Virus record (IMG/VR): IMGVR_UViG_3300037170_000294
Coordinates: 1-37,725 of that record
DNA: 37,725 bases
Strand: one strand, 5' to 3'
DNA from: a virus
The number at the start of each line of letters is the position of its first letter. Position 1 is the stretch's first letter. The notes below the pieces were generated by a model that was given only the letters and a program-made list of their open reading frames with translations, did no database searches and was not told the origin of the DNA. The position numbers and the translations under genes were made by a program. Shown piece by piece: positions 14,839-32,614 of the stretch.

Positions 14839-15693
14839 ATGGATCGAGAAGAAGTTGGTACCCGCGCATCGATACTTGGGATTATAGTTAATATTGCATT
14901 AGCAGTATTGAATTTAACTATTGGAATAATAGGAAACTCCAGTGCTTTAATAGCAAGTGGTGGAGATAATATTTCTGATGTATTAGCGTCAGCTATAACA
15001 ATGATTTTTTTCAAGATAGGATTAAAAGCTGCAAATGAAGACTACCCTTACGGTTTTGGAAGAATTGAAAATTTAGCTGGTCTTATTATAGCCGGATTCC
15101 TGGCGGTTGTCGGCTATGAAATATTATTGGAATCTTGGGCAAAATTATCCGCCATGCTTTTTTTACACCAATATTCCTCACCCGATCTATATACTGCGGT
15201 TATGGCATTAATAGCATTTGGAGTTAATTTCTTTATTGCGACATATCTTTTGCGAACTGGAAAAAAAATCAACAGCTCAGCTATTATAGCAATAGGCAAG
15301 CATAAATTCGTGGACATTTTTTCATCACTTGCAGTTTTTTTTGGTATACTTATAAGTATCTTTGGTTTTCCCATTGCTGACCCAATCTTAGGTATTGTAG
15401 TTTGTGTATTGATATTTAAGACATCAATAGAAATTGGCTTTGACAATTCAAAGAATATACTAGGTCATGTACCTGAAGGACTTTATGATTATATTTATAA
15501 GCGGGCAAATAGAATAGAGGGCGTAGAAAAAGTTCAAGAATTAAAAATCAATGTTGCGGGTGCATATACATATTTAGAAATAGAAATTATTGCGAAAGAT
15601 GACTCTTATGATCTTGAGCAAAAAATAGAAAAAGAGTTATTAAAAATAGAATATGTAAAAGGGTGTAGTGTTCAAGCTATACCTCAAGAATGA
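14839..15693 (+). CDS. CDF-family divalent metal cation transporter
   Basis: This 284-residue protein has the cation diffusion facilitator layout: six membrane helices in the first 200 residues and a cytoplasmic ferredoxin-like domain from about 205. The metal-site residues of the FieF/YiiP type are present. Helix 2 gives Asp43 and Asp47 ('SGGDNISDVLAS'), helix 5 gives His155 and Asp159 ('KHKFVDIFSS'), and the loop motif 'YPYGFGRIENLAG' follows helix 2. Known members exchange Zn2+, Fe2+, Mn2+ or similar for protons across the cytoplasmic membrane. It is the last gene of the virion operon, one base after a small membrane protein, and faces the - strand operon. A virus-borne copy is unusual; whether it exports metal during infection is not visible. 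Confidence 0.88.
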   Translation: MDREEVGTRASILGIIVNIALAVLNLTIGIIGNSSALIASGGDNISDVLASAITMIFFKIGLKAANEDYPYGFGRIENLAGLIIAGFLAVVGYEILLESWAKLSAMLFLHQYSSPDLYTAVMALIAFGVNFFIATYLLRTGKKINSSAIIAIGKHKFVDIFSSLAVFFGILISIFGFPIADPILGIVVCVLIFKTSIEIGFDNSKNILGHVPEGLYDYIYKRANRIEGVEKVQELKINVAGAYTYLEIEIIAKDDSYDLEQKIEKELLKIEYVKGCSVQAIPQE

Positions 15694-16643: not shown

Positions 16644-17096
16644 TTAATCACCTTGTCGTTTTTCTTCTATCCATTTCATAACATCTTGAGTTTGTTCCCC
16701 GTCTATATTATAGCGTTCTAAAAACTCTTCATTAGGTTTAAAAAGTTTATAATCTTTTGTATACTCATCTATTTTATCTGATTCCCCTAATATTCCCATA
16801 GATGTAATAGTAGGTTCTCCAAATTCCGTTACTCCTAAATCAGTTACAAGATAATGTGCTATCCCTGTATTATCAAGCTTATATTCAAGATTTACTAATT
16901 CGTAAGAATCAGGAACCGCTAAAATTATAGTCTTAATACATTGTTCGTTCCACTTGTCAATTATTTCATCACTAGCCCGCATCATTGCTTTACTGGTTGC
17001 ATGTGTAACTTGAACTGCAAACTTACCAGGACTCATTGGCAAATCTTCTCTAATTAATATTACTAATTTTACTTCTGTTTCTAATTTTCCACTCAT
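16644..17096 (-). CDS. pth2: Peptidyl-tRNA hydrolase, Pth2 type
   Basis: This 150-residue protein matches the archaeal/eukaryotic Pth2 fold, which cleaves the ester between peptide and tRNA to recycle tRNAs from stalled or dropped-off chains. Key blocks are visible: 'LVILIREDLPMSPGKFAVQV' with the conserved Lys25, 'THATSKAM' with His32, a Trp before the central strand ('DKWNEQCIKTIILAV'), and 'VTDLGVTEFGEPTITSMGI' with Asp86 and Thr90. A short C-terminal extension (about 35 residues) goes beyond the usual length of about 115-120. It overlaps the HD hydrolase gene by ATGA. With a tRNA array and CCA-adding enzyme in the same window, it fits a virus-encoded tRNA maintenance module. Confidence 0.85.
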   Translation of the reverse strand: MSGKLETEVKLVILIREDLPMSPGKFAVQVTHATSKAMMRASDEIIDKWNEQCIKTIILAVPDSYELVNLEYKLDNTGIAHYLVTDLGVTEFGEPTITSMGILGESDKIDEYTKDYKLFKPNEEFLERYNIDGEQTQDVMKWIEEKRQGD

Positions 17097-18015: not shown

Positions 18016-18049
18016 TAAAAAAAATATAAATTCCTATAAAGAATTTATA
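18016..18049 (-). terminator. Hairpin plus T-run terminator after papain-like peptidase gene
   Basis: On the - strand, a stem TATAAATTC/GAATTTATA with a 7-base loop is followed by eight T residues. The gene's stop codon lies inside the loop. It closes the wall-attack gene set before the Pth2 operon promoter. Confidence 0.55.
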
Positions 18050-19242
18050 ACCTCTTTAATTAATCCTTCTGCTTTTTGATTATTCGCGTAACTAGGGTTT
18101 CCAAGAAATTTGATCGCTTCTTCTAAAAGCTCGACCACCCCCTGATTAGGGGTTGTTCCCGTTACCGTTAGCGTATTATTTCCCACAGTTGGTGCATAAG
18201 TTGCATCGCCAGCGAAAGTTACTCCTATTGGATATGTACCAGCTTTTTGAGATATAGTGTAATTCAATGTTGCTTTCCCATTTTTATCTGTTGCTACAGC
18301 ACCAATTTCTTTTCCACTTATTGAAAAGATTACATTTTCTCCTCCGATATATTCATTGTTGTCTGTTTCTATTAAATCGGCGGTTAACTGAATTTGTGCG
18401 CCGGGAGCAGCAGTTACAGGATCTACAGCTAAATAGGTGGGGAGTGTGTTGGAAACAGGTTGTGGGGTTTGACCAGTGATTGCTTGTTCATCAGCTTCTA
18501 ACTGAGCGAAATTAAATCCTGCTGGTGTTACACCCTGAGCATTCAAAATCTCTTTGTCAAACGCTAACCATCCTTCATCAACGTATTTATTAAAGAAGGC
18601 AGGAGTCATAGGAATTAATCCGCCCCAAGTAGATACTATTAAATCACCTTTGGCAGTTACACCTACAATTTTCAATGTAGTTGTTTTAGCAGATGCTTCT
18701 ACTCCGCCGATTGCGTGACCACCTAGTATTCCACCATCATCTGGAACAACATCCCATACCTCTCCATTATTAAATTGATCTTCAGCACTTTGTGGAAGTT
18801 GTACGCCGACAAATACTCCACCGAAATAATATATAACCTCGTAAAACTCATTGATATTTGTATTGTCAAGCTGTAGAAATGAGCTGATTATTCCCTGATT
18901 CTTTAAATATTGGAGAAGTGTTGAAAACTCACAACCTTGATCAGTGCTAGGGTCTTTGGGGTTATAATCACAACCACCTTCATATAGATTTTCAGCATCT
19001 GTATCCGTAAATAATTTAGCAATACCACCCATTGAGGTAAAAACTTCCCTTAAATGGAGTGTACACGCGCAAGCACAATCGCCTAATTTGTCATTTAAGA
19101 ACATTTGAGATAGATTAACACCAGAAGCGTATCCTAAAGGGAAACCTGGAAGTGCTATCTTTTCAATAATTCTATAATCCTTATACTTTAATATGTTCGT
19201 CTTTTGCCTAAACCCTTTTTTCCCTTTTCTATATTTAACCAT
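18034..19242 (-). CDS. Papain-like (C1-type) cysteine peptidase with C-terminal Ig-like domain
   Basis: A 402-residue protein. Residues 30-230 look like a C1-type peptidase of the phage/archaeal branch: 'LNDKLGDCACACTLH' (candidate nucleophiles Cys56, Cys58 or Cys60), 'GGILGGHAIGG' with His176, and 'VSTWGG' in place of the papain NSWG. Residues 255-365 form an Ig-like domain ('VDPVTAAPGAQIQLTAD', ending 'NNTLTVTG') like those in methanogen surface adhesins. No signal peptide is seen. In this setting it could digest the peptide part of the cell wall during entry or lysis; processing of virion proteins is the alternative. It abuts a 36-codon ORF upstream. Confidence 0.7.
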   Translation of the reverse strand: MVKYRKGKKGFRQKTNILKYKDYRIIEKIALPGFPLGYASGVNLSQMFLNDKLGDCACACTLHLREVFTSMGGIAKLFTDTDAENLYEGGCDYNPKDPSTDQGCEFSTLLQYLKNQGIISSFLQLDNTNINEFYEVIYYFGGVFVGVQLPQSAEDQFNNGEVWDVVPDDGGILGGHAIGGVEASAKTTTLKIVGVTAKGDLIVSTWGGLIPMTPAFFNKYVDEGWLAFDKEILNAQGVTPAGFNFAQLEADEQAITGQTPQPVSNTLPTYLAVDPVTAAPGAQIQLTADLIETDNNEYIGGENVIFSISGKEIGAVATDKNGKATLNYTISQKAGTYPIGVTFAGDATYAPTVGNNTLTVTGTTPNQGVVELLEEAIKFLGNPSYANNQKAEGLIKEVINSL

Positions 19243-19360: not shown

Positions 19361-20764
19361 TTAAGAATTTATATCTGTTTGATAATCTCCAACATGACAA
19401 GTACCTTCATTACAAATCAAAGTACCCATAGGTCTCTGCATTTCAGCCGCTCCCGCTAAATCGTAGAAATTTGGATTTGTGGAAGCTGTCCATGTTTGAA
19501 CTGCTATTGAATTATTAAAAGTAATCCAGTAATGGCCGTAAGTTCCATCTGAACAGGTTACCATGCCATCAATATCCCAAAAATCAACACCTATTCTGTA
19601 ACCCAAAGCTCTTAACACTGGGTTTCCAATACATTCTACCCAGTCCGCACAATTAATTCCACTACTCCATGCATAATTATTTACAGCATCTATAATTGAA
19701 TATTTACGATTATCATATTCAGCGTAAACACCTTCTTTAATAACAAGATTGTAAAGGTCTTCTTTGGTTTTGATTGTGACGTTAAATCTATTTTCAATGG
19801 TACTCAACACCCATAAATCAGATCCAACAGCTGGCGCTGGAGGTGTTGGCACTACATTAACCGCTATCTGATTAGGATACCTGTGATTTGCTTTGTAGAA
19901 AGCATCATATCTAGTAAGCATTCCTAGGTACGTGTGGAAGTTTATATAATTCCCAGTCTGTGAACTATTTATAAATACCTGCGTTGGATTTGGGTTTGAT
20001 TGAGATTTATGAGTTGTAATATAATTTTGTACCCATACAATCATTGCCTTAAAATTTGAAAGTGGTATTTCATCATAACTTGTTGATATATCTATATTGG
20101 TCACATTATTACCTCCATAAACATTTATAACTGCATTGCATAACATATCTGGATATTGTGGTGTTAATTCTGGGTGCGGACTGAAAAGAATCACATTACC
20201 TTTTTCATTTGGGGTATCCATCACAATAGCAGGATAACCATTATAATCTCCATTAATAAAGGTTGCTAAAACTACACCACTGGCAACTTGAAAAGCTGGA
20301 CCAGATTCATGATCTATTTGTAAAGTTCCGGTTCTCCCAAATATGGCATTTCCTTCATCTGTAAACTCAATATCCACCAAACCATCAACTGCATAAACAA
20401 TTGAAGTGATGCCGGGTGCTAAGTTAAAACCTAAATAAGTTGGACCACCCGTTACATTATGAGATACTGCGTAAGCACCGCTGCAAGTTGCTACAACTCC
20501 GCCACCGTTTTCTACAAAAGTTAATAAGTCTTTACCGTTTACGTTAGGGTTGTTAATGTATAGTGATTCAGCTCCATCCCCTCCAGGTAATATTATAACA
20601 TCGTATCCTTTCATGATTGCAGCGTTAAGAGTTACTGTTTTATCTACTTGGAAGGTATAACCATTATATGGTTTTGCGTTTTTAAGTATAGAAATAGTGT
20701 TGGGGAAACAGTTCTGTCCAACCCCAGTCCCACTGAATACTAGAATATTAATTGTTTCTGTCAT
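19361..20764 (-). CDS. Predicted pseudomurein-lytic enzyme: amidotransferase-like plus Pei-like domains
   Basis: A 467-residue protein in three parts. Residues 1-220 form a class I glutamine-amidotransferase-like fold of the BPL_N/ThuA type, with nucleophile elbow 'VVATCSGAYA' (Cys94) and 'LFSPHPELTP' (His197, Glu199), an intact Cys-His-Glu set. Residues 222-305 ('LSNFKAMIVWVQNYI', 'HRYPNQIAV') resemble a pseudomurein-binding repeat. Residues 315-467 resemble the transglutaminase-like peptidase domain of pseudomurein endoisopeptidases such as PeiW/PeiP: 'GINCADWVECIGNPVLRALG' (Cys372), 'GHYWITF' (His411); the acidic third residue is unclear. It would cut peptide or isopeptide links in methanogen cell walls. 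ATG follows AAAGGAGG, which is also the end of the upstream gene. Wall specificity is inferred. Confidence 0.65.
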   Translation of the reverse strand: MTETINILVFSGTGVGQNCFPNTISILKNAKPYNGYTFQVDKTVTLNAAIMKGYDVIILPGGDGAESLYINNPNVNGKDLLTFVENGGGVVATCSGAYAVSHNVTGGPTYLGFNLAPGITSIVYAVDGLVDIEFTDEGNAIFGRTGTLQIDHESGPAFQVASGVVLATFINGDYNGYPAIVMDTPNEKGNVILFSPHPELTPQYPDMLCNAVINVYGGNNVTNIDISTSYDEIPLSNFKAMIVWVQNYITTHKSQSNPNPTQVFINSSQTGNYINFHTYLGMLTRYDAFYKANHRYPNQIAVNVVPTPPAPAVGSDLWVLSTIENRFNVTIKTKEDLYNLVIKEGVYAEYDNRKYSIIDAVNNYAWSSGINCADWVECIGNPVLRALGYRIGVDFWDIDGMVTCSDGTYGHYWITFNNSIAVQTWTASTNPNFYDLAGAAEMQRPMGTLICNEGTCHVGDYQTDINS

Positions 20765-20771
20765 TTTAGTT

Positions 20772-21533
20772 TTAACCTCCTTTGGGAAATGTTAAATTCA
20801 CAGGACAATAATGATCCCACGGATCCCAAACCCAATAAACATATCCCGCAGTTTTACTACCCAAAATAATATTAACATCTTCTAAAATATCAGCAACCGG
20901 AAATGGAGTGATGGGAATACCAGCGGTGCTATCACAAGTAGCGACAGCAGGTAATATTTTATTAGCATTTCCAACTTCTGCAATATACTTATTTAAAGTA
21001 TTTTTAACCCATGTATGGTCTTTTGGTGGGTTATCGTTCTCTGCAGGTCTTCGATAAAGTTCTGGGATTATAAAATCAAAAAAGGGTACTAATGCCGCTG
21101 CACTAACCCCACTACCACCTTCGTAAAAGGGTGCTGAACTTTTGGCTTTAGGATTCGCTTCATGGATTGTATTTGTGAAATCTTCTGCAAATGTTTTTAA
21201 TTGAGCTGCCTTCCAATTACTATTTACTACAAAGTCATCAGTGCTGAAACCTACAATTCCTAGTTCAGAAATTAATTCTGAAACATATTTTAAGAAAGTA
21301 GAAACACTTGAAGGAGTGAAATAACTTAAAACAGCATAACAAGGAGTTAATCTTAATTTAGTAGTTTCCATGTTCTTTAAATAAGCTTCTAATAGTATTT
21401 TAACTTCCGCATATGTTAAACCGTTTACGGTCATAGTTACATCAGTACATCCTAATGATTCCATATTTTCAAAAAAAGAAGCTGTAAGATACTCAGTTGG
21501 AGAAAAAGCAAATGAATATATACTATGGATCAT
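20772..21533 (-). CDS. Glycoside-hydrolase-like TIM-barrel protein
   Basis: A 253-residue protein without signal peptide, showing barrel-like strand endings rich in acidic and aromatic residues: 'GFSTDDFVV', 'FFDFIIPELYRRP', 'ILPAVATCD' and 'GYVYWVWDPWD'. The pattern matches GH-like barrels in archaeal and phage cell-wall enzymes, where an Asp/Glu pair at strand ends is catalytic; Asp-Asp at about residues 97-98 and Glu in 'IIPELY' are the best candidates. It sits between two predicted wall-active genes. The last codons (Lys-Gly-Gly-stop) read AAAGGAGGTTAA and also provide the ribosome site of the downstream enzyme. An attack on the glycan strands is inferred. Confidence 0.55.
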   Translation of the reverse strand: MIHSIYSFAFSPTEYLTASFFENMESLGCTDVTMTVNGLTYAEVKILLEAYLKNMETTKLRLTPCYAVLSYFTPSSVSTFLKYVSELISELGIVGFSTDDFVVNSNWKAAQLKTFAEDFTNTIHEANPKAKSSAPFYEGGSGVSAAALVPFFDFIIPELYRRPAENDNPPKDHTWVKNTLNKYIAEVGNANKILPAVATCDSTAGIPITPFPVADILEDVNIILGSKTAGYVYWVWDPWDHYCPVNLTFPKGG

Positions 21534-21537
21534 ATCC

Positions 21538-22251
21538 TTAAACTCCTGTAACTGGTTCAGTTGTTACGCTAGCCATACCATATTGTAGGAAATCATAGTT
21601 CAGTCCTTTATATACAACTAACCTGGTGAAATCCTCGAAAGATAGTATCTCACCTGGAAAACTAACCGTCTTAGGCAATCTTTTCATAAGTTCATAGTAT
21701 GCATTAACTCTATTTATACCATCCTGGACCTGATATACTGTTAGTGAACTAGCCACCAATGCCGCCTCATGAGCTATGAAAGTAACAATAGGAGTTATAT
21801 TTGCGAATGTTACACCTTCAATGTAGGAAACTCCCTGGGTCCGTACATATAAATCAGGATGTGCAATACCCGTAAATGTTTTATCATCATAATTGTCCTG
21901 TTTATCCCTAGCTAGCCACAATCTGTTAGTTATTAAGGGCATAGTTGAATGACTGAAGATATATACAAGAGCGTCTCTTCTGTTCCCTAATGTTCTCTTA
22001 TAACCTATATCTCCTTTTTCGTATATTATCCCCGGGTCCATACCACCATAAATATCTACAATCAAAGCATCATCAGGTGCTGTTTTAAAGACATCCCAAT
22101 GACTATCTGCTCCAACTGCCACTGTTTGAGCGTTTAATCCTTTCGCTTTTAAAGAAGTTAGTAATAAGTTTAAATGGTTCATATCAGTTGGATCTGTACT
22201 ATTTTTGTTGTAGATTATATCCGATGCTAAATAAATTGGTCTATTTGTCGT
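21538..22251 (-). CDS. Methanogen wall/adhesin-type protein, apparent ACG start
   Basis: The first ATG is at 22182, but the frame is open 23 codons further to an ACG at 22251, which has a consensus ribosome site (GAGGTGA) exactly 5 bases upstream. The extra residues read '(M)TTNRPIYLASDIIYNKN', the usual opening of a family of methanogen surface-associated proteins ('kPIYIASDxI'). This supports the longer 237-residue form. The body contains 'DALIVDIYGGMDPGIIYEKG' and 'FTGIAHPDLYVRTQG', also seen in that family, followed by a pseudomurein-binding-repeat-like stretch ('VNAYYELMKRLPKTV'). A cell-wall binding role is inferred. The next gene starts 4 bases after its stop. Confidence 0.6.
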   Translation of the reverse strand, partial: TTNRPIYLASDIIYNKNSTDPTDMNHLNLLLTSLKAKGLNAQTVAVGADSHWDVFKTAPDDALIVDIYGGMDPGIIYEKGDIGYKRTLGNRRDALVYIFSHSTMPLITNRLWLARDKQDNYDDKTFTGIAHPDLYVRTQGVSYIEGVTFANITPIVTFIAHEAALVASSLTVYQVQDGINRVNAYYELMKRLPKTVSFPGEILSFEDFTRLVVYKGLNYDFLQYGMASVTTEPVTGV

Positions 22252-22755: not shown

Positions 22756-23952
22756 TCAATAAATTACACTAACATTGGAATAATTATCTTTTAGCAAAGA
22801 AGAGAGGTCCTGATATTTTCTTGGAATAAATGTCATCAATTTATCCTCTTCAACAAAAATATTTTCTTCACCATGTTTTTTTATAAAACCGTTTGAAGCC
22901 TCTTTTCCTGCAAAAATAGATGGCCCCTCTGATTTTTTAAATAGAGGAGGGATGTAACCGATTTCTTCCTCCACAATTATATAAATATCAAAACCAACAA
23001 TATGATAATTTATACTTAATATTGTGAAATCATGGTCTTCGATTAGTTGCTGAATACTTTTCATGTATTTACGAGCTTTAGAATGCAAGATCTCTTTATT
23101 ATTCGAGATAGAAAAAATTTTAATTAAATATCCTCCACTCTGGCAATCGTTAAATCGTTGCTTATAAAAATCTATCGAAAAATCTATAGGTTCCCCTATA
23201 TCAAATGCACTCAAACTGGGAATTTCGAGAAACTTTCTTGCCGCGATTACAAATTTAGAATATGATTCAATTCCAAGAGCTGCGGCCACATTCCGATTTT
23301 TATCAACTGGATCGGAAAAATGAATAACTCCTCCAATATCTCTATAATCTTTTATTTCACTTTCTAACACATTTATGAAAGAACCATATTCAATTACGAG
23401 AAGCTCACATAAATAGCCACTGAATCCTCGATGCTCTTCGTCGGCCCCATAAACTCCAGTAGCTTTTAAAAATTGTTTCAGTAATCTTACTTCCCTTTTT
23501 TGTTCTCCAAATAGATTCTTTATCACATAATGTGTGTGATGCGGACTACGATCTACGGCCGAGATTATATCTTCACCTTCCACAATATTGTAACAAGGTA
23601 CAACATCAACCTCAATATCTCCATATTTACTATGGATATAAGGATGAGAAGCATATTCTAAATTGACTTTTAATCCAAACTCTTCTAAAAAATTTTTTAA
23701 TTTTTCTACTATTTTTTTGAAACTTTCTTTTGGAGTATCTATTGGAAATTTCAAGAAGATATCTAAGTCACTATTACCACGAAGCGCAGTCCCTTTAGCC
23801 ACAGACCCATTAAGTTCTATTACTATTTCTTCACCAAAATATTCTTGCAAGCGATCACGGAGGTTTATAAATAGAAAAGAGAGTTCATCCTCCTCTTCAG
23901 TAGTCGGTGTTATTTTGCGAAGAACACTTTTACAAATTTTTTCGATTGTCAT
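22756..23952 (-). CDS. cca: CCA-adding enzyme (tRNA nucleotidyltransferase), archaeal class I
   Basis: This enzyme adds C-C-A to tRNA 3' ends. The ATG at 23952 begins MTIEKICKSVLRKITPT; longer frames run into tRNA-Val and are rejected. The nucleotidyltransferase core is complete: 'LNGSVAKGTALRGNSDLDIF' (Gly49-Ser50, Asp62 and Asp64), third carboxylate Asp116 in 'IEVDVVPCY', and 'DRSPHHTHYVI', the archaeal RTPxHT-like block. At about 398 residues it is slightly shorter than cellular archaeal enzymes (about 440). None of the tRNA genes here encodes CCA, so this gene would be needed to mature them if the host enzyme is limiting. A TATA box 26 bases upstream suggests a leaderless transcript, and the gene directly follows the tRNA array. 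Confidence 0.9.
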   Translation of the reverse strand: MTIEKICKSVLRKITPTTEEEDELSFLFINLRDRLQEYFGEEIVIELNGSVAKGTALRGNSDLDIFLKFPIDTPKESFKKIVEKLKNFLEEFGLKVNLEYASHPYIHSKYGDIEVDVVPCYNIVEGEDIISAVDRSPHHTHYVIKNLFGEQKREVRLLKQFLKATGVYGADEEHRGFSGYLCELLVIEYGSFINVLESEIKDYRDIGGVIHFSDPVDKNRNVAAALGIESYSKFVIAARKFLEIPSLSAFDIGEPIDFSIDFYKQRFNDCQSGGYLIKIFSISNNKEILHSKARKYMKSIQQLIEDHDFTILSINYHIVGFDIYIIVEEEIGYIPPLFKKSEGPSIFAGKEASNGFIKKHGEENIFVEEDKLMTFIPRKYQDLSSLLKDNYSNVSVIY

Positions 23953-23972
23953 AAAAAGAAGTAAGTTGAACA

Positions 23973-23982
23973 TTATATAAAT
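23973..23982 (-). promoter_or_regulatory. TATA promoter of the CCA-adding enzyme gene
   Basis: ATTTATATAA lies between the 3' end of tRNA-Val and the ATG at 23952, about 26 bases from that ATG. Spacing fits a leaderless archaeal message. Confidence 0.55.
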
Positions 23983-23987
23983 AGTTA

Positions 23988-24061
23988 TTGGCGTAGTCGG
24001 ATTCGAACCGACGGTCTTCTCGGTGTAAACGAGGTGCATTACCAGACTATGCTATACGCCA
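23988..24061 (-). tRNA. tRNA-Val (anticodon TAC)
   Basis: Perfect 7-bp acceptor stem (TGGCGTA/TACGCCA), D-loop with GG, anticodon loop TTTACAC, T-loop TTCGAAT, discriminator A. Pair 27:43 is a C-A mismatch. No encoded CCA. Confidence 0.9.
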
Positions 24062-24064
24062 TAA

Positions 24065-24137
24065 TGCGTGATAGGAGATTCGAACTCCTATTTCGACGTT
24101 GGAAGCGTCGGGTGTTAACCATTGTCACTAATCACGC
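24065..24137 (-). tRNA. tRNA-Gly (anticodon TCC)
   Basis: Acceptor GCGTGAT/ATCACGC, anticodon loop CTTCCAA on a CGACG/CGTCG stem, T-loop TTCGAAT, discriminator A. Its 5' end overlaps the 3' end of the small gene at 24128-24310 by 10 bases. Confidence 0.9.
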
Positions 24138-24310
24138 TTGTTAAATATTCTTTCAACTGGTGGGCAAACACAATAAGAATCCCAAGCGCCACCACATTCG
24201 GGGCATCTTCTTTCTTCTGACCACCCTACTTTACAGAAACATCCGGGAACTTCTTTTCTACAATATTCCCCATTTTTAAGTTTCTCTTCATCAACATCTG
24301 AATTTAACAT
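24128..24310 (-). CDS. Small zinc-ribbon-like protein (60 aa)
   Basis: Eight cysteines are arranged as 'YCRKEVPGCFCKVGW', 'RRCPECGGAW' and 'SYCVCPP', typical of a small zinc-binding domain. The ATG overlaps the stop region of the upstream gene by 7 bases, and its stop lies inside tRNA-Gly(TCC), so message and tRNA are probably cut from one transcript. Function unknown. Confidence 0.55.
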   Translation of the reverse strand: MLNSDVDEEKLKNGEYCRKEVPGCFCKVGWSEERRCPECGGAWDSYCVCPPVERIFNKRD

Positions 24311-24666
24311 TGTTCGACCCCATCACCATTTTCATTCCAATAATATTCTCCACTCTTTAGTATTTTTATTTGCTCCTCATGATATTTAATCCTTGCCTCG
24401 ACATCTACTTTACCCCATTCCTCATTAAAATTCTTGTCTATGTATTTGGAGTTCAAAAATTCACAATAATCGCCAGCAAGTAAAGGAGCAAGGTCTTTTG
24501 GGGTCTCTCCAAACCTATCACCTCCAATAAATACAGCCACAAGTTTTTCTCGATCTAAAACATTTTCTTCATTCTCATTAATCATATAAATAAACCAATG
24601 ATCGTAAGTCCAGATAGTATCCCCTTTTCTAAATGAAAATGGTTTATCACTCATTCTAAATCTCAT
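24304..24666 (-). CDS. Hypothetical protein (120 aa)
   Basis: An acidic, aromatic-rich protein ('RKGDTIWTYDHWFIYMINE', 'ARIKYHEEQIKILKSGEYYW'). Its beginning looks like a small SH3-like fold around 'FRKGDTIWTY'. It overlaps both neighbours (ATGA at its start). Probably co-transcribed with the flanking tRNAs. No family recognised. Confidence 0.5.
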   Translation of the reverse strand: MRFRMSDKPFSFRKGDTIWTYDHWFIYMINENEENVLDREKLVAVFIGGDRFGETPKDLAPLLAGDYCEFLNSKYIDKNFNEEWGKVDVEARIKYHEEQIKILKSGEYYWNENGDGVEQC

Positions 24667-24842
24667 TTTCTCTCTCTTTCTATTTTTTCGACTTTATATC
24701 TAACAGAATCTTCGCTTAATTTTTCAATATCTAATATATAATACCATTTGTCATTGGAAATAATTAAATCATGGAGTTCCCAATTTTCATCGTCAATTAA
24801 TTCGAGTAATTCATTTTCACCATCTATCAATATAGCAAACAT
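24663..24842 (-). CDS. Hypothetical protein (59 aa)
   Basis: I take the ATG at 24842 (MFAILIDGENELLELIDDEN); a longer in-frame start lies inside tRNA-Gly(GCC). The acidic product ends in a basic helix ('KVEKIERERK'). It starts 2 bases after the tRNA 3' end and couples to the next gene by ATGA. Confidence 0.5.
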   Translation of the reverse strand: MFAILIDGENELLELIDDENWELHDLIISNDKWYYILDIEKLSEDSVRYKVEKIERERK

Positions 24843-24843
24843 A

Positions 24844-24916
24844 TGCAACCTCTGGGACTTGAACCCAAATCTTCTCATTGGCAATGAGGAGTTTTAACCA
24901 GTTAAACTAAGGTCGC
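24844..24916 (-). tRNA. tRNA-Gly (anticodon GCC)
   Basis: Acceptor GCGACCT/AGGTTGC with one G-T pair, D-loop AACTGGTTA, anticodon loop TTGCCAA, T-loop TTCAAGT, discriminator A. A C-A mismatch at 27:43 repeats the oddity of tRNA-Val. Confidence 0.88.
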
Positions 24917-24920
24917 TAAG

Positions 24921-24992
24921 CTCCCTCGAGGGGATTCGAACCCCCATTCGTTCGATTAGAAGTCGAAAGCAATTCCATTATGCTACGAGGGA
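24921..24992 (-). tRNA. tRNA-Arg (anticodon TCT)
   Basis: Perfect acceptor TCCCTCG/CGAGGGA, anticodon stem TTCGA/TCGAA with loop CTTCTAA, T-loop TTCGAAT, discriminator G. Confidence 0.92.
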
Positions 24993-25001
24993 AAATTTAA
25001 A

Positions 25002-25090
25002 CGCGCCGACCAGGATTCGAACCTGGATGCCCTTTTTACGAGGCTCTCGGTCTCAAGCCGAGCCTATTAACCTGATTCTAGCACCGACGC
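25002..25090 (-). tRNA. tRNA-Ser (anticodon TGA)
   Basis: Long variable arm, acceptor GCGTCGG/TCGGCGC with two G-T pairs, anticodon loop CTTGAGA, T-loop TTCGAAT, discriminator G as usual for Ser. Confidence 0.9.
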
Positions 25091-25092
25091 AA

Positions 25093-25175
25093 CGCCGACT
25101 GCTGGATTCGGACCAGCGAGCTCCCGAAGAAGCATGGATTTCCAATCCATCACATTACCACTCTGTCAAGTCGGC
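25093..25175 (-). tRNA. tRNA-Ser (anticodon GGA), T-loop with C55
   Basis: Acceptor GCCGACT/AGTCGGC perfect, anticodon loop TTGGAAA, long variable arm, discriminator G. The T-loop is TCCGAAT, so position 55 is C; the D-loop keeps GG, allowing a G18:C55 pair. Confidence 0.9.
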
Positions 25176-25179
25176 AATA

Positions 25180-25410
25180 TTATTCTATTCCTTTACCATA
25201 GAACTCACAACCATAATGATATAATTTCCATGATAACCATATTTTAAATCTTATTAGTAAAGGACAATTATCTATAATGTCAAGACTATCATTATAATAT
25301 TTATCATCCACTACTATTCGGAAAGAAGATTCACATAAAATATACCCTATACCTTCAAACATTGCTCTTCCCAATTCACATTTTTCAAATAATTCTGATG
25401 TTGTTTTCAT
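25180..25410 (-). CDS. Hypothetical protein (76 aa) between tRNA-Ser genes
   Basis: ATG at 25410, three bases after the 3' end of tRNA-Ser(GCT), and stop 5 bases before tRNA-Ser(GGA). The product has a central hydrophobic helix and an aromatic C-terminus ('FKIWLSWKLYHYGCEFYGKG'). No family recognised. Confidence 0.5.
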   Translation of the reverse strand: MKTTSELFEKCELGRAMFEGIGYILCESSFRIVVDDKYYNDSLDIIDNCPLLIRFKIWLSWKLYHYGCEFYGKGIE

Positions 25411-25412
25411 AA

Positions 25413-25496
25413 CGCCGCGACTCGGATTCGGACCGAGGAGCCGCCGAAGCGACCAGGATTAGCAATCCTGCGCAATAACCTCTCTGCCACCGCGGC
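25413..25496 (-). tRNA. tRNA-Ser (anticodon GCT), T-loop with C55
   Basis: Acceptor GCCGCGG/TCGCGGC, anticodon stem CAGGA/TCCTG with loop TTGCTAA, long variable arm, discriminator G. T-loop TCCGAAT with C55, D-loop GG retained, as in tRNA-Ser(GGA). Confidence 0.9.
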
Positions 25497-25498
25497 AA

Positions 25499-25573
25499 TG
25501 GACACTACCGAATTTGAATCGGCGATCGTCGGGTTATGAGCCCGCAGCTTTAACCAAACTAAGCTAAGCGTCC
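25499..25573 (-). tRNA. tRNA with anticodon CAT (Met or Ile2)
   Basis: Acceptor GGACGCT/AGTGTCC, D-loop AGTTTGGTTA, anticodon loop CTCATAA, T-loop TTCAAAT, discriminator A. It lacks the A1:U72 pair of archaeal initiators. C34 may be modified to read AUA (Ile2) or left for Met; sequence alone does not settle this. Confidence 0.85.
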
Positions 25574-25578
25574 TAATA

Positions 25579-25654
25579 TTGAGGTAAAGGGAATTGAACC
25601 CTCGATCTTCCGTGTATCAGACGGATGCGTTAACCATAACTACGCCATACCTCA
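25579..25654 (-). tRNA. tRNA-Ile (anticodon GAT)
   Basis: Perfect acceptor TGAGGTA/TACCTCA, anticodon stem TCCGT/ACGGA with loop CTGATAC, D-loop with GG, T-loop TTCAATT, discriminator A. Confidence 0.92.
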
Positions 25655-25658
25655 TAAA

Positions 25659-25730
25659 AGAGCACAGCAGGAATCGAACCTGCTTCTACGGGGTTGCAAC
25701 CCGTCACCTAATCCGGTCGGCCATGTGCTC
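25659..25730 (-). tRNA. tRNA-Cys (anticodon GCA)
   Basis: Perfect acceptor GAGCACA/TGTGCTC, anticodon stem ACGGG/CCCGT with loop TTGCAAC, T-loop TTCGATT, discriminator T (U73 is the Cys identity base). Confidence 0.92.
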
Positions 25731-25731
25731 A

Positions 25732-25804
25732 TGGGCTTACCGGAACTCGAATCCGGATCGAAGATTTCGAAGACCTTCATGCTCTCCAATTACACCATAA
25801 GCCC
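25732..25804 (-). tRNA. tRNA-Arg (anticodon TCG)
   Basis: Perfect acceptor GGGCTTA/TAAGCCC, D-arm GTGT/GCAT with GG, anticodon loop CTTCGAA, T-loop TTCGAGT, discriminator A. Confidence 0.9.
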
Positions 25805-25806
25805 TA

Positions 25807-26301
25807 TTAATCACCTTTATTTTCTAACATAAATGTTGGCATAAATTCAAAATATTCATTCTTAGCATAACAACGTTCTCCATGAAATTCAGTAAAATGA
25901 CTATCTCCTTTTTTGAGAGTTAAATAGCACCCATAAGCAGGTGTTGCACTATATGCCATCTCCCAAAAATATTTAAAGTTATCATCATCTTCATACATTC
26001 GAATCGTTGGTTGCCAATTACCGTCTTGTAGGTATAATAATTGCCAAGGAGCATAAGCATTAAATCCAATCGTAAATTTATCTCCTTCATATAAGTCAAA
26101 CATTTCGGCAGCTTCATCCACCATTAAATTAAATGCTTTTCTATACGCTTCATAAGGATAAGGTTTAATCATTTTTTCCACCTTTATCATATCATAATCC
26201 TCAAAACTACAATCTGGGCAATAATTTCCATGTCTCCATATTATAGTATCTTCTCTAAATTCTTTACAACTTTCACATTGGATTTTAACCATTTTAATCA
26301 C
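25807..26301 (-). CDS. Hypothetical protein with N-terminal zinc ribbon (about 164 aa)
   Basis: Starts at a GTG overlapping the upstream stop (GTGA) or at the ATG three codons later. Residues 8-35 carry two CxxC pairs ('IQCESCKEFR', 'YCPDCSFED'), a zinc ribbon. The remainder is aromatic-rich and acidic ('NAYAPWQLLYLQDGNWQPT'). It lies directly upstream of tRNA-Arg(TCG). Possibly nucleic-acid binding; no family recognised. Confidence 0.55.
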   Translation of the reverse strand: MIKMVKIQCESCKEFREDTIIWRHGNYCPDCSFEDYDMIKVEKMIKPYPYEAYRKAFNLMVDEAAEMFDLYEGDKFTIGFNAYAPWQLLYLQDGNWQPTIRMYEDDDNFKYFWEMAYSATPAYGCYLTLKKGDSHFTEFHGERCYAKNEYFEFMPTFMLENKGD

Positions 26302-26609
26302 AACCAGAAATACGATTTTGGTGCTAATTTATCAAGCATGTCAGCCGTTCTAAATGGGGTCCAAGGGTTAAGACATGCAATTACTTCTCCGCACCAAGGA
26401 CAATGAGATATAGTTAAACCACCTTCAATTGGCTTAGTAAAATCATTATCTTCATGGTCAGGAATCTCCATTTCAATGCCACTACTTATAATGTGATGAT
26501 ACTTTAAACCAATATCCATATCGTTACAACATGGTCTAAGAACCTCATAAAGACAACCATAGATTTTATCTTCATCTTCAATTTTTCCTTTTAATAGATC
26601 TACTATCAT
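26298..26609 (-). CDS. Small protein with CxxC zinc motif (103 aa)
   Basis: I choose the ATG at 26609 (MIVDLLKGKIEDEDKIYGCL) because the longer frame runs inside the neighbouring gene and reads as unrelated residues. A C-terminal 'ISHCPWCGEVIACLNPW' motif and an earlier 'RPCCND' could bind zinc. It overlaps the 26578-26778 gene by 32 bases and the zinc-ribbon gene downstream by GTGA. Confidence 0.5.
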   Translation of the reverse strand: MIVDLLKGKIEDEDKIYGCLYEVLRPCCNDMDIGLKYHHIISSGIEMEIPDHEDNDFTKPIEGGLTISHCPWCGEVIACLNPWTPFRTADMLDKLAPKSYFWL

Positions 26610-26778
26610 AACCAACCATCTCTGCATAATGATATATATGTTTTTCGTTTGTAAAATTATTATTCTTCTCGACCAATATATATTGGTGGCAAGCTGCACA
26701 CACAACAGAATCTCTAAAATGACTTTCGATTATTGGAATATCCGGCAAATCTATTTTATATTTTGAAGGCAATTTCAT
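26578..26778 (-). CDS. Hypothetical protein (66 aa)
   Basis: ATG at 26778 follows the stop of the upstream gene directly (TGAATG). The product (MKLPSKYKIDLPDIPIIESH) contains 'SVVCAACHQYI' and a His/Tyr-rich helix, a possible half zinc site. Its 3' end overlaps the next gene by 32 bases. Unknown function. Confidence 0.45.
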   Translation of the reverse strand: MKLPSKYKIDLPDIPIIESHFRDSVVCAACHQYILVEKNNNFTNEKHIYHYAEMVGYDSRSIKRKN

Positions 26779-27096
26779 TCAATATATCTCCCATGTATTT
26801 CCTAATTTATCATACAACGTAATCCTTAATTCACCATCAGATGAATAGATTTGCTCAACACGAACACCAGATAATGACAAGTCACCATTAACTTTAAAAT
26901 CATATTCATCTAAATGAAAATCATTTACTTTTAATTCAATTTCATCAACATATATCTTTTGCACTTCATCTAAATTATTAAAATTTACCCTGAAATATCC
27001 AAAGTTAATAGATTCAATGTCACATGGCCTCAATTCAAATATTTTATTAGCCAAACAGTAAATAAAATTGTCTTTATGTATTTCCCAGTTACTCAT
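26779..27096 (-). CDS. Hypothetical protein (105 aa)
   Basis: A beta-rich acidic protein ('VNDFHLDEYDFKVNGDLSLS', 'GELRITLYDKLGNTWEIY') without cysteine clusters or membrane segments. It is coupled by ATGA to the zinc-knuckle gene upstream and by TGAATG to the gene downstream. No family recognised. Confidence 0.5.
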   Translation of the reverse strand: MSNWEIHKDNFIYCLANKIFELRPCDIESINFGYFRVNFNNLDEVQKIYVDEIELKVNDFHLDEYDFKVNGDLSLSGVRVEQIYSSDGELRITLYDKLGNTWEIY

Positions 27097-27257
27097 ATTT
27101 CACCTTTACCATTACAATTTTTACAAACTCTCATATGATAACTTCTACCGTTAAAATATCCACTATAATCCCAAGGGTCTAGCTCTGGTTTTATAACATA
27201 CTTTCTTGTTGGGATCCTAATAATCCCTTCGCCATTACAATTTTTACAGATTTTCAT
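27093..27257 (-). CDS. DnaJ-type zinc-knuckle mini-protein (54 aa)
   Basis: The ATG at 27257 gives MKICKNCNGEG; a longer frame overlaps tRNA-Phe and is rejected. Two CxxCxGxG knuckles ('CKNCNGEG' at the start, 'CKNCNGKGE' at the end) are arranged as in the zinc-binding domain of DnaJ, but without a J domain. Such stand-alone knuckles bind zinc and unfolded peptide or nucleic acid in various proteins. Role here unknown. Confidence 0.6.
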   Translation of the reverse strand: MKICKNCNGEGIIRIPTRKYVIKPELDPWDYSGYFNGRSYHMRVCKNCNGKGEI

Positions 27258-27281
27258 GATTATTTCATAATCATCACCTAA

Positions 27282-27353
27282 TGAGCCGAGGAGGACTTGA
27301 ACCACCGACTTGCCGTCTTCAGCGACAGACTTTCCCTGTTAAGCTATCGGCTC
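27282..27353 (-). tRNA. tRNA-Phe (anticodon GAA)
   Basis: Perfect acceptor GAGCCGA/TCGGCTC, D-arm GCTT/AAGT with GG, anticodon loop CTGAAGA, T-loop TTCAAGT with one T-T mismatch in the T-stem, discriminator A. Confidence 0.88.
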
Positions 27354-27362
27354 TATATTGAG

Positions 27363-27435
27363 GGCACAAGCGGAGAGATGAGCTCCGTCTGCGAGGATCA
27401 CAACCTCGAGTGCTAGCCGTTACACTACATGCGCC
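27363..27435 (-). tRNA. tRNA-His (anticodon GTG), encoded G-1
   Basis: Acceptor GCGCATG/CTTGTGC with an extra 5' G opposite discriminator C, the G-1:C73 hallmark of His. Anticodon stem CGAGG/CCTCG, loop TTGTGAT. The T-loop is the odd CTCATCT (C54, U58) while the D-loop keeps GG. One U-U mismatch at 6:67. Confidence 0.85.
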
Positions 27436-27445
27436 ATTATGATTG

Positions 27446-27548
27446 AGTGGCGGATGGATTTGAACCATCCCCTCATAATGCTCATATTCTTCTCCAACCT
27501 CTCCGAGGAAGTCATTGTTTTAATATAAGACTTACACTGAACCACAAA
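27446..27548 (-). other. tRNA-like element with good T-arm, isotype unresolved
   Basis: A 6-bp T-stem (GGATGG/CCATCC) with loop TTCAAAT and a partial acceptor match (GTGG/CCAC) lie in a 103-base slot between tRNA-Pro and tRNA-His. I cannot fold standard D and anticodon arms; the interior contains an AAGTC/GACTT stem with a 15-base loop. It may be a decayed tRNA, one with an intron, or a tRNA-like RNA. Confidence 0.3.
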
Positions 27549-27624
27549 TGGGATTGGCTGGATTCGAACCAGCGACCTAAGCGTTCCAAACGCCCAATCC
27601 TAAACCAGACTAGACCACAATCCC
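27549..27624 (-). tRNA. tRNA-Pro (anticodon TGG)
   Basis: Perfect acceptor GGGATTG/CAATCCC, D-loop AGTCTGGTTT, anticodon loop TTTGGAA, T-loop TTCGAAT, discriminator A. Confidence 0.9.
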
Positions 27625-27629
27625 TAAAT

Positions 27630-27714
27630 GCCCGAATTTTCATTCGGGCTACCGCCTCCAGGTTCCATTTCTTTTGATCGGGGAGAAAGGTCACCATTAA
27701 CGAAATAACCCCGA
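27630..27714 (-). ncRNA. Candidate structured RNA between tRNA-Trp and tRNA-Pro
   Basis: On the - strand, a 7-bp stem ATCGGGG/CCCCGAT (27-base loop) is followed by a linker and an 8-bp hairpin GCCCGAAT/ATTCGGGC closed by a GAAA tetraloop. GNRA loops are typical of stable structured RNA, and only the - strand (same strand as the tRNAs) has one. No tRNA arms fit. It could be a small RNA or a processing signal in the tRNA transcript. Confidence 0.35.
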
Positions 27715-27789
27715 TGGGTCTAGCCGAACTTGCATCGACACTTCAGGTTCTGGAGACCTGCTGGCTTCTAATTACCTTATCATAGACCC
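27715..27789 (-). tRNA. tRNA-Trp (anticodon CCA), A18/G55 elbow
   Basis: Perfect acceptor GGGTCTA/TAGACCC, anticodon stem CAGGT/ACCTG with loop CTCCAGA, discriminator A. The T-loop is TGCAAGT (G55) and the D-loop AATTAGAA (A18 G19). The link between acceptor and D-stem is about 4 bases longer than usual. Confidence 0.85.
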
Positions 27790-27792
27790 TAA

Positions 27793-27866
27793 TGGAATCT
27801 ACGGGATTTGCACCCGTAGCCTTCGCCTTGCAAAGGCGACGCTCTTCTAATTAGAGCTAAGACCCC
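27793..27866 (-). tRNA. tRNA-Ala (anticodon TGC), A18/G55 elbow
   Basis: Acceptor GGGGTCT/AGATTCC containing the G3:U70 identity pair of Ala, anticodon stem TCGCC/GGCGA with loop TTTGCAA, discriminator A. T-loop TGCAAAT (G55) and D-loop TAATTAGAA (A18 G19). Confidence 0.9.
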
Positions 27867-27876
27867 TCTTTGAATT

Positions 27877-27961
27877 TAACGGAGACGAGATTTGAACTCG
27901 CGATTGCACTAAGCACCGGTCTTAAGCCGGTAAGGTTAACCAGACTCCCTAACACTCCGTT
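27877..27961 (-). tRNA. tRNA-Leu (anticodon TAA)
   Basis: Perfect acceptor AACGGAG/CTCCGTT, long variable arm, anticodon stem with loop CTTAAGA, T-loop TTCAAAT, D-loop with GG, discriminator A. It is the only Leu tRNA that I can fold here. Confidence 0.88.
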
Positions 27962-27964
27962 AAG

Positions 27965-28036
27965 CGCCAACGACAGGGCTCGAACCTGCATCTTCAGATT
28001 AACAGTCTGACATACTACCAATTGTACTACAAAGGC
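27965..28036 (-). tRNA. tRNA-Asn (anticodon GTT)
   Basis: Anticodon stem TCAGA/TCTGA with loop CTGTTAA, D-loop AATTGGTA, T-loop TTCGAGC, discriminator G as in archaeal Asn. The acceptor GCCTTTG/CGTTGGC has two adjacent U-U mismatches. Confidence 0.85.
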
Positions 28037-28041
28037 AAATG

Positions 28042-28115
28042 AGCCTACGGTGGGATCTGCCCCCACAACAAACAGCTTACAAGGCTGCCACCAATTCTAA
28101 TATGGCCTCGCAGGC
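28042..28115 (-). tRNA. tRNA-Thr (anticodon TGT), unusual T-loop
   Basis: Acceptor GCCTGCG/CGTAGGC, anticodon stem GCAGC/GCTGT with loop CTTGTAA, discriminator U as in archaeal Thr. T-loop GGCAGAT (G54, G55, G58); D-loop TATTAGAAT carries A18 G19. Confidence 0.85.
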
Positions 28116-28127
28116 AAATTAAAGCCC

Positions 28128-28155
28128 CTCCTCACTGATAAAATTATTGGAGGAG
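28128..28155. repeat. Inverted repeat between tRNA-Tyr and tRNA-Thr
   Basis: CTCCTC and GAGGAG arms separated by 16 AT-rich bases, in a 44-base spacer of the tRNA array. Could be a processing stem. Confidence 0.4.
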
Positions 28156-28159
28156 CTAA

Positions 28160-28230
28160 TCCCCACGACCGGTGTCGAACCGGCAGAGGATGGGTCTACA
28201 GCCCATCTGGGAGGCCGCTCCCACGCAGGG
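28160..28230 (-). tRNA. tRNA-Tyr (anticodon GTA), compact D-arm
   Basis: Acceptor CCCTGCG/CGTGGGG with the C1:G72 pair that marks archaeal/eukaryotic Tyr, anticodon stem ATGGG/CCCAT with loop CTGTAGA, T-loop TTCGACA, discriminator A. The D-arm is a 6-bp stem TGGGAG/CTCCCA with only a CGGC tetraloop, far shorter than normal. Confidence 0.87.
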
Positions 28231-28233
28231 TAA

Positions 28234-28305
28234 TGCTATCTGAGGGAGTTGCACCCTCGTTAACGAAGTGAAAGTCCGTCGTCCTTGCTGCTAGACTAAG
28301 ATAGC
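28234..28305 (-). tRNA. tRNA-Glu (anticodon TTC), A18/G55 elbow
   Basis: Perfect acceptor GCTATCT/AGATAGC (G1:C72), anticodon loop CTTTCAC, discriminator A. T-loop TGCAACT (G55); D-loop AGCAGCAA lacks GG and aligns as A18 G19. Confidence 0.88.
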
Positions 28306-28313
28306 AAATAAAG

Positions 28314-28388
28314 TGAGTCGAGGGAGATTTGAACTCCCGATCTAGGGATTAAAAGTCCCTCGCCTTAATCAGACTAGGCCACCGACCC
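28314..28388 (-). tRNA. tRNA-Lys (anticodon TTT)
   Basis: Acceptor GGGTCGG/TCGACTC, anticodon stem AGGGA/TCCCT with loop CTTTTAA, T-loop TTCAAAT, discriminator A. The D-loop is AGTCTGATTA, so position 19 is A opposite C56, an uncompensated change. Confidence 0.9.
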
Positions 28389-28392
28389 AAAG

Positions 28393-28489
28393 TGTTCAGA
28401 GGAGGACTTGCACCTCCATCTTCCTTTAAATAAGTATATGTCTATACTAAGACTATTTAAAAGTGCTTTACTCGTTAAGCTATCCTCAC
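28393..28489 (-). tRNA. tRNA-like gene with expanded anticodon arm, isotype unresolved
   Basis: The D-arm (GCTT/AAGC, loop AACGAGTA) and T-arm (GGAGG/CCTCC, loop TGCAAGT) are clear. The acceptor (GTGAGGA/TCTGAAC) pairs only with a tandem G-A/A-G mismatch. In place of a 17-base anticodon arm is a 41-base hairpin: an 11-bp stem, a 5-base bulge TCTTA and a 5-bp stem GTATA/TATAC with loop GACA. It may hold an intron or be a non-decoding tRNA-like RNA. It shares the A18/G55 elbow. Confidence 0.45.
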
Positions 28490-28491
28490 AA

Positions 28492-28564
28492 CGGAGCCGC
28501 CGGGGTACGATCCCGAATCGATGCCGTGACAGGGCAACATGCTAGCCAATTACACCACAGCCCC
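28492..28564 (-). tRNA. tRNA-Asp (anticodon GTC), unusual T-loop
   Basis: Acceptor GGGGCTG/CGGCTCC, anticodon loop CTGTCAC, D-loop AATTGGCTA, discriminator G. T-loop ATCGTAC: the usual U54/A58 pair is reversed to A54/U58. Confidence 0.87.
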
Positions 28565-28566
28565 AA

Positions 28567-28638
28567 TTGCGACGGTCGGAATCAAACCGACTCTCTACAG
28601 GTCATGAGCCTGTCGAATATTCAATTTTCTACGCCGCA
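28567..28638 (-). tRNA. tRNA-Met (anticodon CAT), A19/U56 elbow
   Basis: Acceptor TGCGGCG/CGTCGCA, anticodon stem ACAGG/CCTGT with loop CTCATGA, discriminator A. D-loop ATTGAATA gives G18 A19 and T-loop TTTGATT gives U56, so the G19:C56 pair is replaced by A19:U56. Not an archaeal initiator (no A1:U72). Confidence 0.85.
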
Positions 28639-28640
28639 TA

Positions 28641-28712
28641 TACTGCCGGTGGGACTTGAACCCGACATTAGCTGGTCCAAAGCCAACCGTCCTTCCGTTG
28701 GACTACGGCAGT
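28641..28712 (-). tRNA. tRNA-Gln (anticodon TTG)
   Basis: Perfect acceptor ACTGCCG/CGGCAGT with A1:U72, the pair used by archaeal GatDE to recognise tRNA-Gln. Anticodon stem GTTGG/CCAGC with loop CTTTGGA, T-loop TTCAAGT (T-stem with two mismatches), D-loop with GG, discriminator A. First tRNA of the array in transcription order. Confidence 0.88.
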
Positions 28713-31754: not shown

Positions 31755-32614
31755 TTAAGAACCTCTTTAAATTCTCTTTCTGTTATTTCAAAAATTATAG
31801 TACAACTTAACGGATCTAAATAAACTCCAAATTTTTTTCTTTTTTTGTTATAAGTGGGGAGAATCAATTGCCAAACCTTAGAAAAAGGATTTCGTTTTCC
31901 TTTAAGTATTTCTTTTTTACAATATAAAACAGCTCCAGGAAAACCAAAAAGCCCACTTCCTTTTTTGAATTCAAAATTTTTTCTTATCCGAGTTCCTGAA
32001 TTTTTTAACCGAGATAAAATTGGACCAGGACTATTACATCCTTCTATCTCGGCAATTTTAATTGTCGACATACCATTTTCATATAAGTCAATAATCCTTT
32101 GATCATTCAATTGTTGATAATTCGGATTTTTCTCCCCTTTTTTAGTCTCACTTAATTTTTTAAGAGTTTCACTAGAATGAATTCTCCCTTTTAGACTTTC
32201 TCCTATTTTTTTTCTATGTTCCTTAGATAAAGTTTTCCCTTCGTGAGCTTTGCTCAATTTTTTTTTGGTTAATTCAGAATGAGTAAAATTTAATCCTCCC
32301 GATTGCAAATTATATCCATTAGGAGCTACACTATTATATAACAAAATATATTCTTTTTCCATTAAATTTAAGTCTTCTATGTTATTAGAAGTATCAAGAA
32401 TAACCCAATCAAAGTTTTCACATCCATATTTACGAAGAGAATTGGCAAAGTATGTATCAATTTTTTCATACTTTGCTTTATTTTGGTGTTGAATTTGTCT
32501 CTTTTTTAACGTTTGAGTTGTTTGCCCTATATAACGCTTACCATTAATTTTATTAATTGCACAATAAATAATTCCATCAATATTTTTTTTATTTGGTTGT
32601 ACATTTATCATCAT
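31751..32614 (-). CDS. GIY-YIG homing endonuclease with NUMOD and AP2-like domains
   Basis: The 287-residue product starts at ATGATG (32614/32611). The nuclease domain holds 'GIIYCAINKINGKRYIGQTT' with the two GIY-YIG halves, the Arg-bearing 'NSLRKYGCENFDW', and Glu in 'LMEKEYI'. Then come NUMOD3 repeats ('HSELTKKKLSKAHEGK', 'LSKEHRKKIGESLKGR', 'HSSETLKKLSETKKGE'), an HTH segment and an AP2-like C-terminus ('GLFGFPGAVLY', 'KKFGVYLDPLSC'). It is a paralogue of the enzyme at 9606-10271. Its stop overlaps the nrdD start (ATGA). GIY-YIG elements are known in phage nrdD (I-TevII of T4), so the site choice fits. Confidence 0.88.
   Translation of the reverse strand: MMINVQPNKKNIDGIIYCAINKINGKRYIGQTTQTLKKRQIQHQNKAKYEKIDTYFANSLRKYGCENFDWVILDTSNNIEDLNLMEKEYILLYNSVAPNGYNLQSGGLNFTHSELTKKKLSKAHEGKTLSKEHRKKIGESLKGRIHSSETLKKLSETKKGEKNPNYQQLNDQRIIDLYENGMSTIKIAEIEGCNSPGPILSRLKNSGTRIRKNFEFKKGSGLFGFPGAVLYCKKEILKGKRNPFSKVWQLILPTYNKKRKKFGVYLDPLSCTIIFEITEREFKEVLK

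Follow-up and report, generated by a model that had tools for sequence, protein, structure and literature searches.

A single 467-residue viral protein joins a BPL_N domain to a pseudomurein-binding repeat (PMBR) and a C-terminal peptidase C71 (Pei) domain, and we regard it as a new domain architecture inside the already known Pei kind of lysin. The window, a 37,725-base virus DNA record from IMG/VR, carries the fusion gene on its minus strand (Table 1). The lysin reading of the protein is well supported, and its lysin half is ordinary. The best explanation, to which we give a probability of roughly 0.4, is a Pei-type wall lysin whose BPL_N domain is a second Cys hydrolase acting on wall peptides.

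The gene starts with ATG and runs through 467 codons as one open reading frame with zero internal stops, so the coordinates 19361-20764 assigned by an earlier note on this DNA are correct. A strong ribosome-binding site, AAAGGAGGT, lies a few bases ahead of the ATG, and the third-codon-position GC is alike in the three parts of the gene (0.23, 0.25, and 0.24), both of which make it unlike an assembly chimera. The fusion is known from a single copy in a single IMG/VR record, as an assembly or annotation artefact would be, but the uninterrupted frame, the one strong ribosome-binding site, the even codon composition, and the short linker leading into a degenerate PMBR make this origin very improbable. 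A PADLOC search assigns the fusion protein to no defence system.

Table 1 Features of the fusion gene, its protein domains, and the two upstream genes
Feature	Position	Strand	Basis
Fusion protein BPL_N + PMBR + peptidase C71 (Pei), 467 aa	19361..20764	-	ORF, Pfam, PHROG 37889
Peptidase C71 (Pei) domain, residues 330-459	19388..19777	-	PF12386; PeiP 8z4f match
Asp435 codon, third triad member	19460..19462	-	Invariant alignment column (PeiP, PeiW, viral Pei proteins)
His411 codon (YGHY)	19532..19534	-	Kept in 7/7 aligned C71/C71-like proteins
Cys372 codon (GINCAD), putative C71 nucleophile	19649..19651	-	Homology; kept in 7/7 aligned C71/C71-like proteins
PMBR, residues 272-302	19859..19951	-	PF09373 and custom PMBR model
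Degenerate pseudomurein-binding-like repeat, residues 232-264	19973..20071	-	Aligns with PeiP repeat; alone not significant
BPL_N domain (class I glutamine-amidotransferase-like), residues 5-218	20111..20752	-	PF09825; Parabacteroides alignment
His197-Pro198-Glu199 codons	20168..20176	-	HPE-x-TP kept in Parabacteroides protein; PF09825 stretch 198-224
Cys94 codon, candidate nucleophile in ATCSGAY	20483..20485	-	Aligns with GICAGAY of Parabacteroides protein
Ribosome-binding site AAAGGAGGT	20775..20783	-	Read 5' of the fusion gene's ATG
253-aa protein, upstream of fusion gene	20772..21533	-	Glycosidase-like by eye
PMBR protein, 237-aa open frame, upstream of fusion gene	21538..22251	-	PF09373

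The C71 domain and its binding repeats

A Pfam search of the fusion protein matches PF12386 at 40.3 bits (E 3.5e-10), above the curated cut-off of 22. PHROG 37889 (pseudomurein endoisopeptidase) matches residues 230-459 with an E value of 2.6e-19, and the PDB search retrieves the solved structures of PeiP (8z4f, E 1.8e-19) and PeiW (8jx4, E 3.7e-5). Across 50,697 phage records, the sole matches are psiM2 and psiM100, both confined to the C-terminal half of the fusion protein. Specifically, Cys372, His411, and Asp435 align with the conserved Cys, His, and Asp of PeiW and PeiP, and GINC-x-D, YGHY, and the Asp are also retained when viral relatives are aligned together with these two. The Pfam and PHROG matches, the PeiP structure, and the aligned triad bear out the Pei-like wall peptidase proposed earlier. 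The description of this end as transglutaminase-like with Cys372 and His411 also holds by the C71 match and alignment, but it had left Asp435, the third triad residue, unnamed. PeiW and PeiP have a Cys-His-Asp triad in common with transglutaminases and cleave Ala-epsilon-Lys bonds (PMC4592898). Homology shows the C-terminal domain as a predicted Pei-type Cys-His-Asp isopeptidase, which is very probably the main cutter of the protein. We take the host range to be pseudomurein-walled methanogens (Methanobacteriales or relatives), and the virus is probably tailed.

Ahead of this domain, PF09373 matches with an E value of 1.3e-4 and 22.3 bits, just below the cut-off of 24.9; the same PMBR gives E 1.4e-4 in the genome search and 16 bits with the custom PMBR model. 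The pseudomurein-binding-like segment noted earlier is thus present as one clear PMBR, with at most one more, degenerate, versus the four that PeiW and PeiP each carry (PMC4592898). Overall, the protein resembles PeiW (psiM100) and PeiP (psiM2) in its C-terminal C71 domain with the aligned Cys, His, and Asp, in the predicted PMBR ahead of it, and in belonging to a methanogen virus. It differs in sharing only ~26% identity over the common part, in four additional residues before the Cys404-x-Asp406 stretch, and in an N-terminal BPL_N domain where PeiW and PeiP have most of their PMBRs.

The N-terminal BPL_N domain

The Pfam family PF09825 matches residues 5-203 at 43.6 bits (E 2.3e-11), above its curated cut-off of 24.2. 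The model is matched in two collinear stretches, positions 1-99, with Cys94, and positions 198-224, with His197/Glu199; the latter stretch falls on residues 177-203, including the His-Pro-Glu. A tblastn search of plasmids finds one bacterial protein, the BPL-N protein of Parabacteroides distasonis, which shares 28% identity across residues 2-202 (E 1e-5 in the plasmid tblastn and 3e-12 pairwise). In this alignment, limited to two sequences, both the x-C-x-G elbow (ATC94SG) and H197-P-E199 characteristic of class I amidotransferase-like proteins are kept. Since the PF09825 stretches and the Parabacteroides protein retain the motifs, the Cys-His-Glu set reflects family conservation rather than chance. 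Weaker matches of the domain include DJ-1/PfpI deglycases and the PdxT and PurQ glutaminases; for its C-terminal part alone the best PDB match is PurQ, with HPE placed on PHPE at a non-significant E value of 0.73. The mean pLDDT of the AlphaFold models is 37.9 for the full length, with a four-sequence input, and 30.7 for BPL_N alone, values too low for judging how near Cys94 lies to His197 and Glu199.

The earlier note had called this domain BPL_N/ThuA-like with Cys94-His197-Glu199. The BPL_N assignment stands above the cut-off and the residues are present, but ThuA membership is rejected, with no match of the ThuA Pfam family at E <= 1. A sequence check finds Cys94, His197, Glu199, Cys372, and His411 all at the positions given there, and the HMM search proposed for both domains places BPL_N and C71 each above the Pfam gathering score.

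Within PF09825, the viral copy shares the Cys and His-x-Glu motifs and the overall length with class III biotin-protein ligases and stand-alone bacterial proteins, but it lacks the ligase domain and is attached to a wall peptidase; Pfam finds no synthase domain in the fusion protein. The N-terminus is hydrophobic in the Parabacteroides copy, whereas no signal peptide is seen in the fusion protein sequence. An intracellular, pre-lysis role, in which BPL_N would work on soluble substrates (for instance as a glutaminase, deamidase, or deglycase) and owe its fusion to expression alone, draws on this missing signal peptide and on the weak deglycase and glutaminase relatives. We consider it unlikely: the joined PMBR and wall peptidase point to the wall, and the missing signal peptide is uninformative because PeiW and PeiP likewise begin directly with their binding repeats.

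Rarity of the fusion and its genomic surroundings

BPL_N was not found in the 50,697 phage records, in PHROGs, or in the IMG/VR viral scans, nor in eight other records that carry C71-like proteins. Viral scans with P0001, BPL_N, and two neighbour genes as queries gave no matches, and neither did genome-contig scans with the C71 query. The pairing of BPL_N with C71 is therefore found nowhere else in the data searched; cellular methanogen genomes lie outside that scope, and the fusion may occur there.

A pattern combining NC-x-D with YGHY recovered further viral C71 proteins. One, in L028, has four PMBRs. Another from IMG/VR (L012:8849-9775 and L014:1846-2772) has PG_binding_1 between a PMBR and C71 and so combines murein with pseudomurein modules in a single chain. 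This architecture resembles the fusion protein in joining a Pei-type domain to a further module beyond the PMBR, and differs in that PG_binding_1 is an established peptidoglycan-binding domain rather than an enzyme-like fold. A C71-like/transglutaminase-like domain also ends a longer, PMBR-less protein that is tail-protein-like by eye (L025:7222-8331). The remaining pattern hits were discarded, either as out of frame (L015, L016, L018, L021-L024, and L026) or as short unrelated frames (L017, L020, and L029). Such varied architectures, among them the PG_binding_1 chain, indicate that the viral C71 family is modular. Gut archaeal viruses commonly carry PeiW-like genes (n = 150; PMC9800368).

The 253-aa protein encoded upstream of the fusion gene has no significant match in Pfam, NCBIfam, or the PDB; its sequence looks, by eye, like that of a TIM-barrel glycosidase, which makes it a candidate pseudomurein glycan cutter. 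The second upstream protein matches PF09373 at 25.5 bits in the search with the neighbours, above the cut-off. Its coding stretch apparently starts ahead of the first ATG (22182), and GAGGTG lies just 5' of an ACG codon; the gene likely starts at this ACG, which suggests a non-standard or mutated start. Downstream, a 402-aa protein (18034-19242, minus strand) matches phrog_19005 in its N-terminal part, which by eye resembles papain and carries Cys and His motifs, and also contains an Ig-like Big_3_5 domain. The fusion gene and its neighbours could form a wall-degradation cluster. Searches run without a positive control found no neighbour genes common to other Pei viruses.

Elsewhere on the minus strand, 23988-28712 holds 24 tRNA genes, which cover 19 amino acids but not Thr. 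Together with the adjoining CCA-adding enzyme (22756-24039) and the peptidyl-tRNA hydrolase Pth2 (16644-17096), they make up a translation kit unusually full for a virus. At 29733-32614 (minus strand), a GIY-YIG/NUMOD3 homing endonuclease gene directly precedes that of an anaerobic ribonucleotide reductase, NrdD. On the plus strand, a tail-region G8-domain protein (7689-9485) shares 41% identity over 218 aa with one in the Pei-carrying virus L028, and a cation efflux (CDF) transporter gene (14839-15693), odd for a virus, closes the plus-strand genes.

Possible roles of BPL_N in wall lysis

During lysis, the C71 domain would cut Ala-epsilon-Lys isopeptide bonds while the PMBR helps keep it on the wall. 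BPL_N, occupying the place of the extra binding repeats of PeiW and PeiP, may, with less certainty, act on wall peptides via a gamma-glutamyl thioester intermediate. Its bonds might be gamma-Glu bonds or gamma-amides, the gamma-glutamyl target being our guess, and the two heads would then attack different bonds of a single substrate. Counted in support of such a two-headed lysin are the C71 and BPL_N matches, both over the Pfam cut-off in a single ORF, the conserved catalytic residues of each domain, the neighbour gene that also encodes a PMBR, and the modularity of the family, as seen in the PG_binding_1 of a viral C71 protein.

Known enzymes offer partial precedents. Gamma-glutamyl hydrolase (C26) cuts gamma-Glu bonds with a Cys, and LD-carboxypeptidase (S66), a wall enzyme with a Ser nucleophile, cuts wall peptide; both have class I amidotransferase-like folds related to that of BPL_N. 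A wall-active enzyme of this fold would thus not be wholly new, in view of LD-carboxypeptidase, and we know of no C26 or S66 enzyme fused to a lysin. Pfam gives no match of the fusion protein to either family. The main pseudomurein cross-link is thought to be gamma-Glu-epsilon-Lys (PMC4592898), which would offer a gamma-glutamyl hydrolase a bond to cut. The more specific proposal, that one lysin holds two Cys centres and that BPL_N is the first known class I amidotransferase-like archaeal-wall cutter, probably at gamma-glutamyl bonds that Pei spares, we regard as possible but less likely than not.

An intact triad is not proof of activity, as the yeast biotin-protein ligase illustrates: it has the same domain and the triad C89, H215, and E217, reported to be well placed in its AlphaFold model, yet in an in vitro assay it did not turn glutamine into glutamate (PMC12582158). 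BPL_N could instead be a non-catalytic accessory that substitutes for missing repeats, attaches to the wall or to a partner, or holds C71 in position, leaving C71 alone to cut; this is quite possible, if short of an even chance. Besides the silent yeast triad, the yeast N-terminal domain adjoins the catalytic site in the AlphaFold model (PMC12582158), which would fit such a role. BPL_N may also serve binding because one clear PMBR is present here versus four in PeiW and PeiP; PMC3124540 puts the need for optimal binding at three, so an extra binding element would be useful. Against this, the viral copy, though divergent, retains the complete Cys-His-Glu set together with the CSGAY elbow. Additionally, the yeast assay used free glutamine only, and amidotransferases often require a partner substrate, whose absence the authors suggest as the reason for the lack of activity (PMC12582158). 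We lean slightly towards the predicted second Cys hydrolase over the accessory role.

If the two-headed lysin is real, a second cutting activity in one viral protein would widen the pseudomurein-opening toolkit, in which Pei enzymes are, to our knowledge, the sole well-characterised members. Interest in these enzymes comes from methane control and from methanogen genetics. A second activity would, in addition, provide the first setting in which to test the function of an intact-triad BPL_N domain, whose role is likewise in question for eukaryotic biotin-protein ligases, and the significance of the fusion would rise sharply if Cys94 proves to matter.
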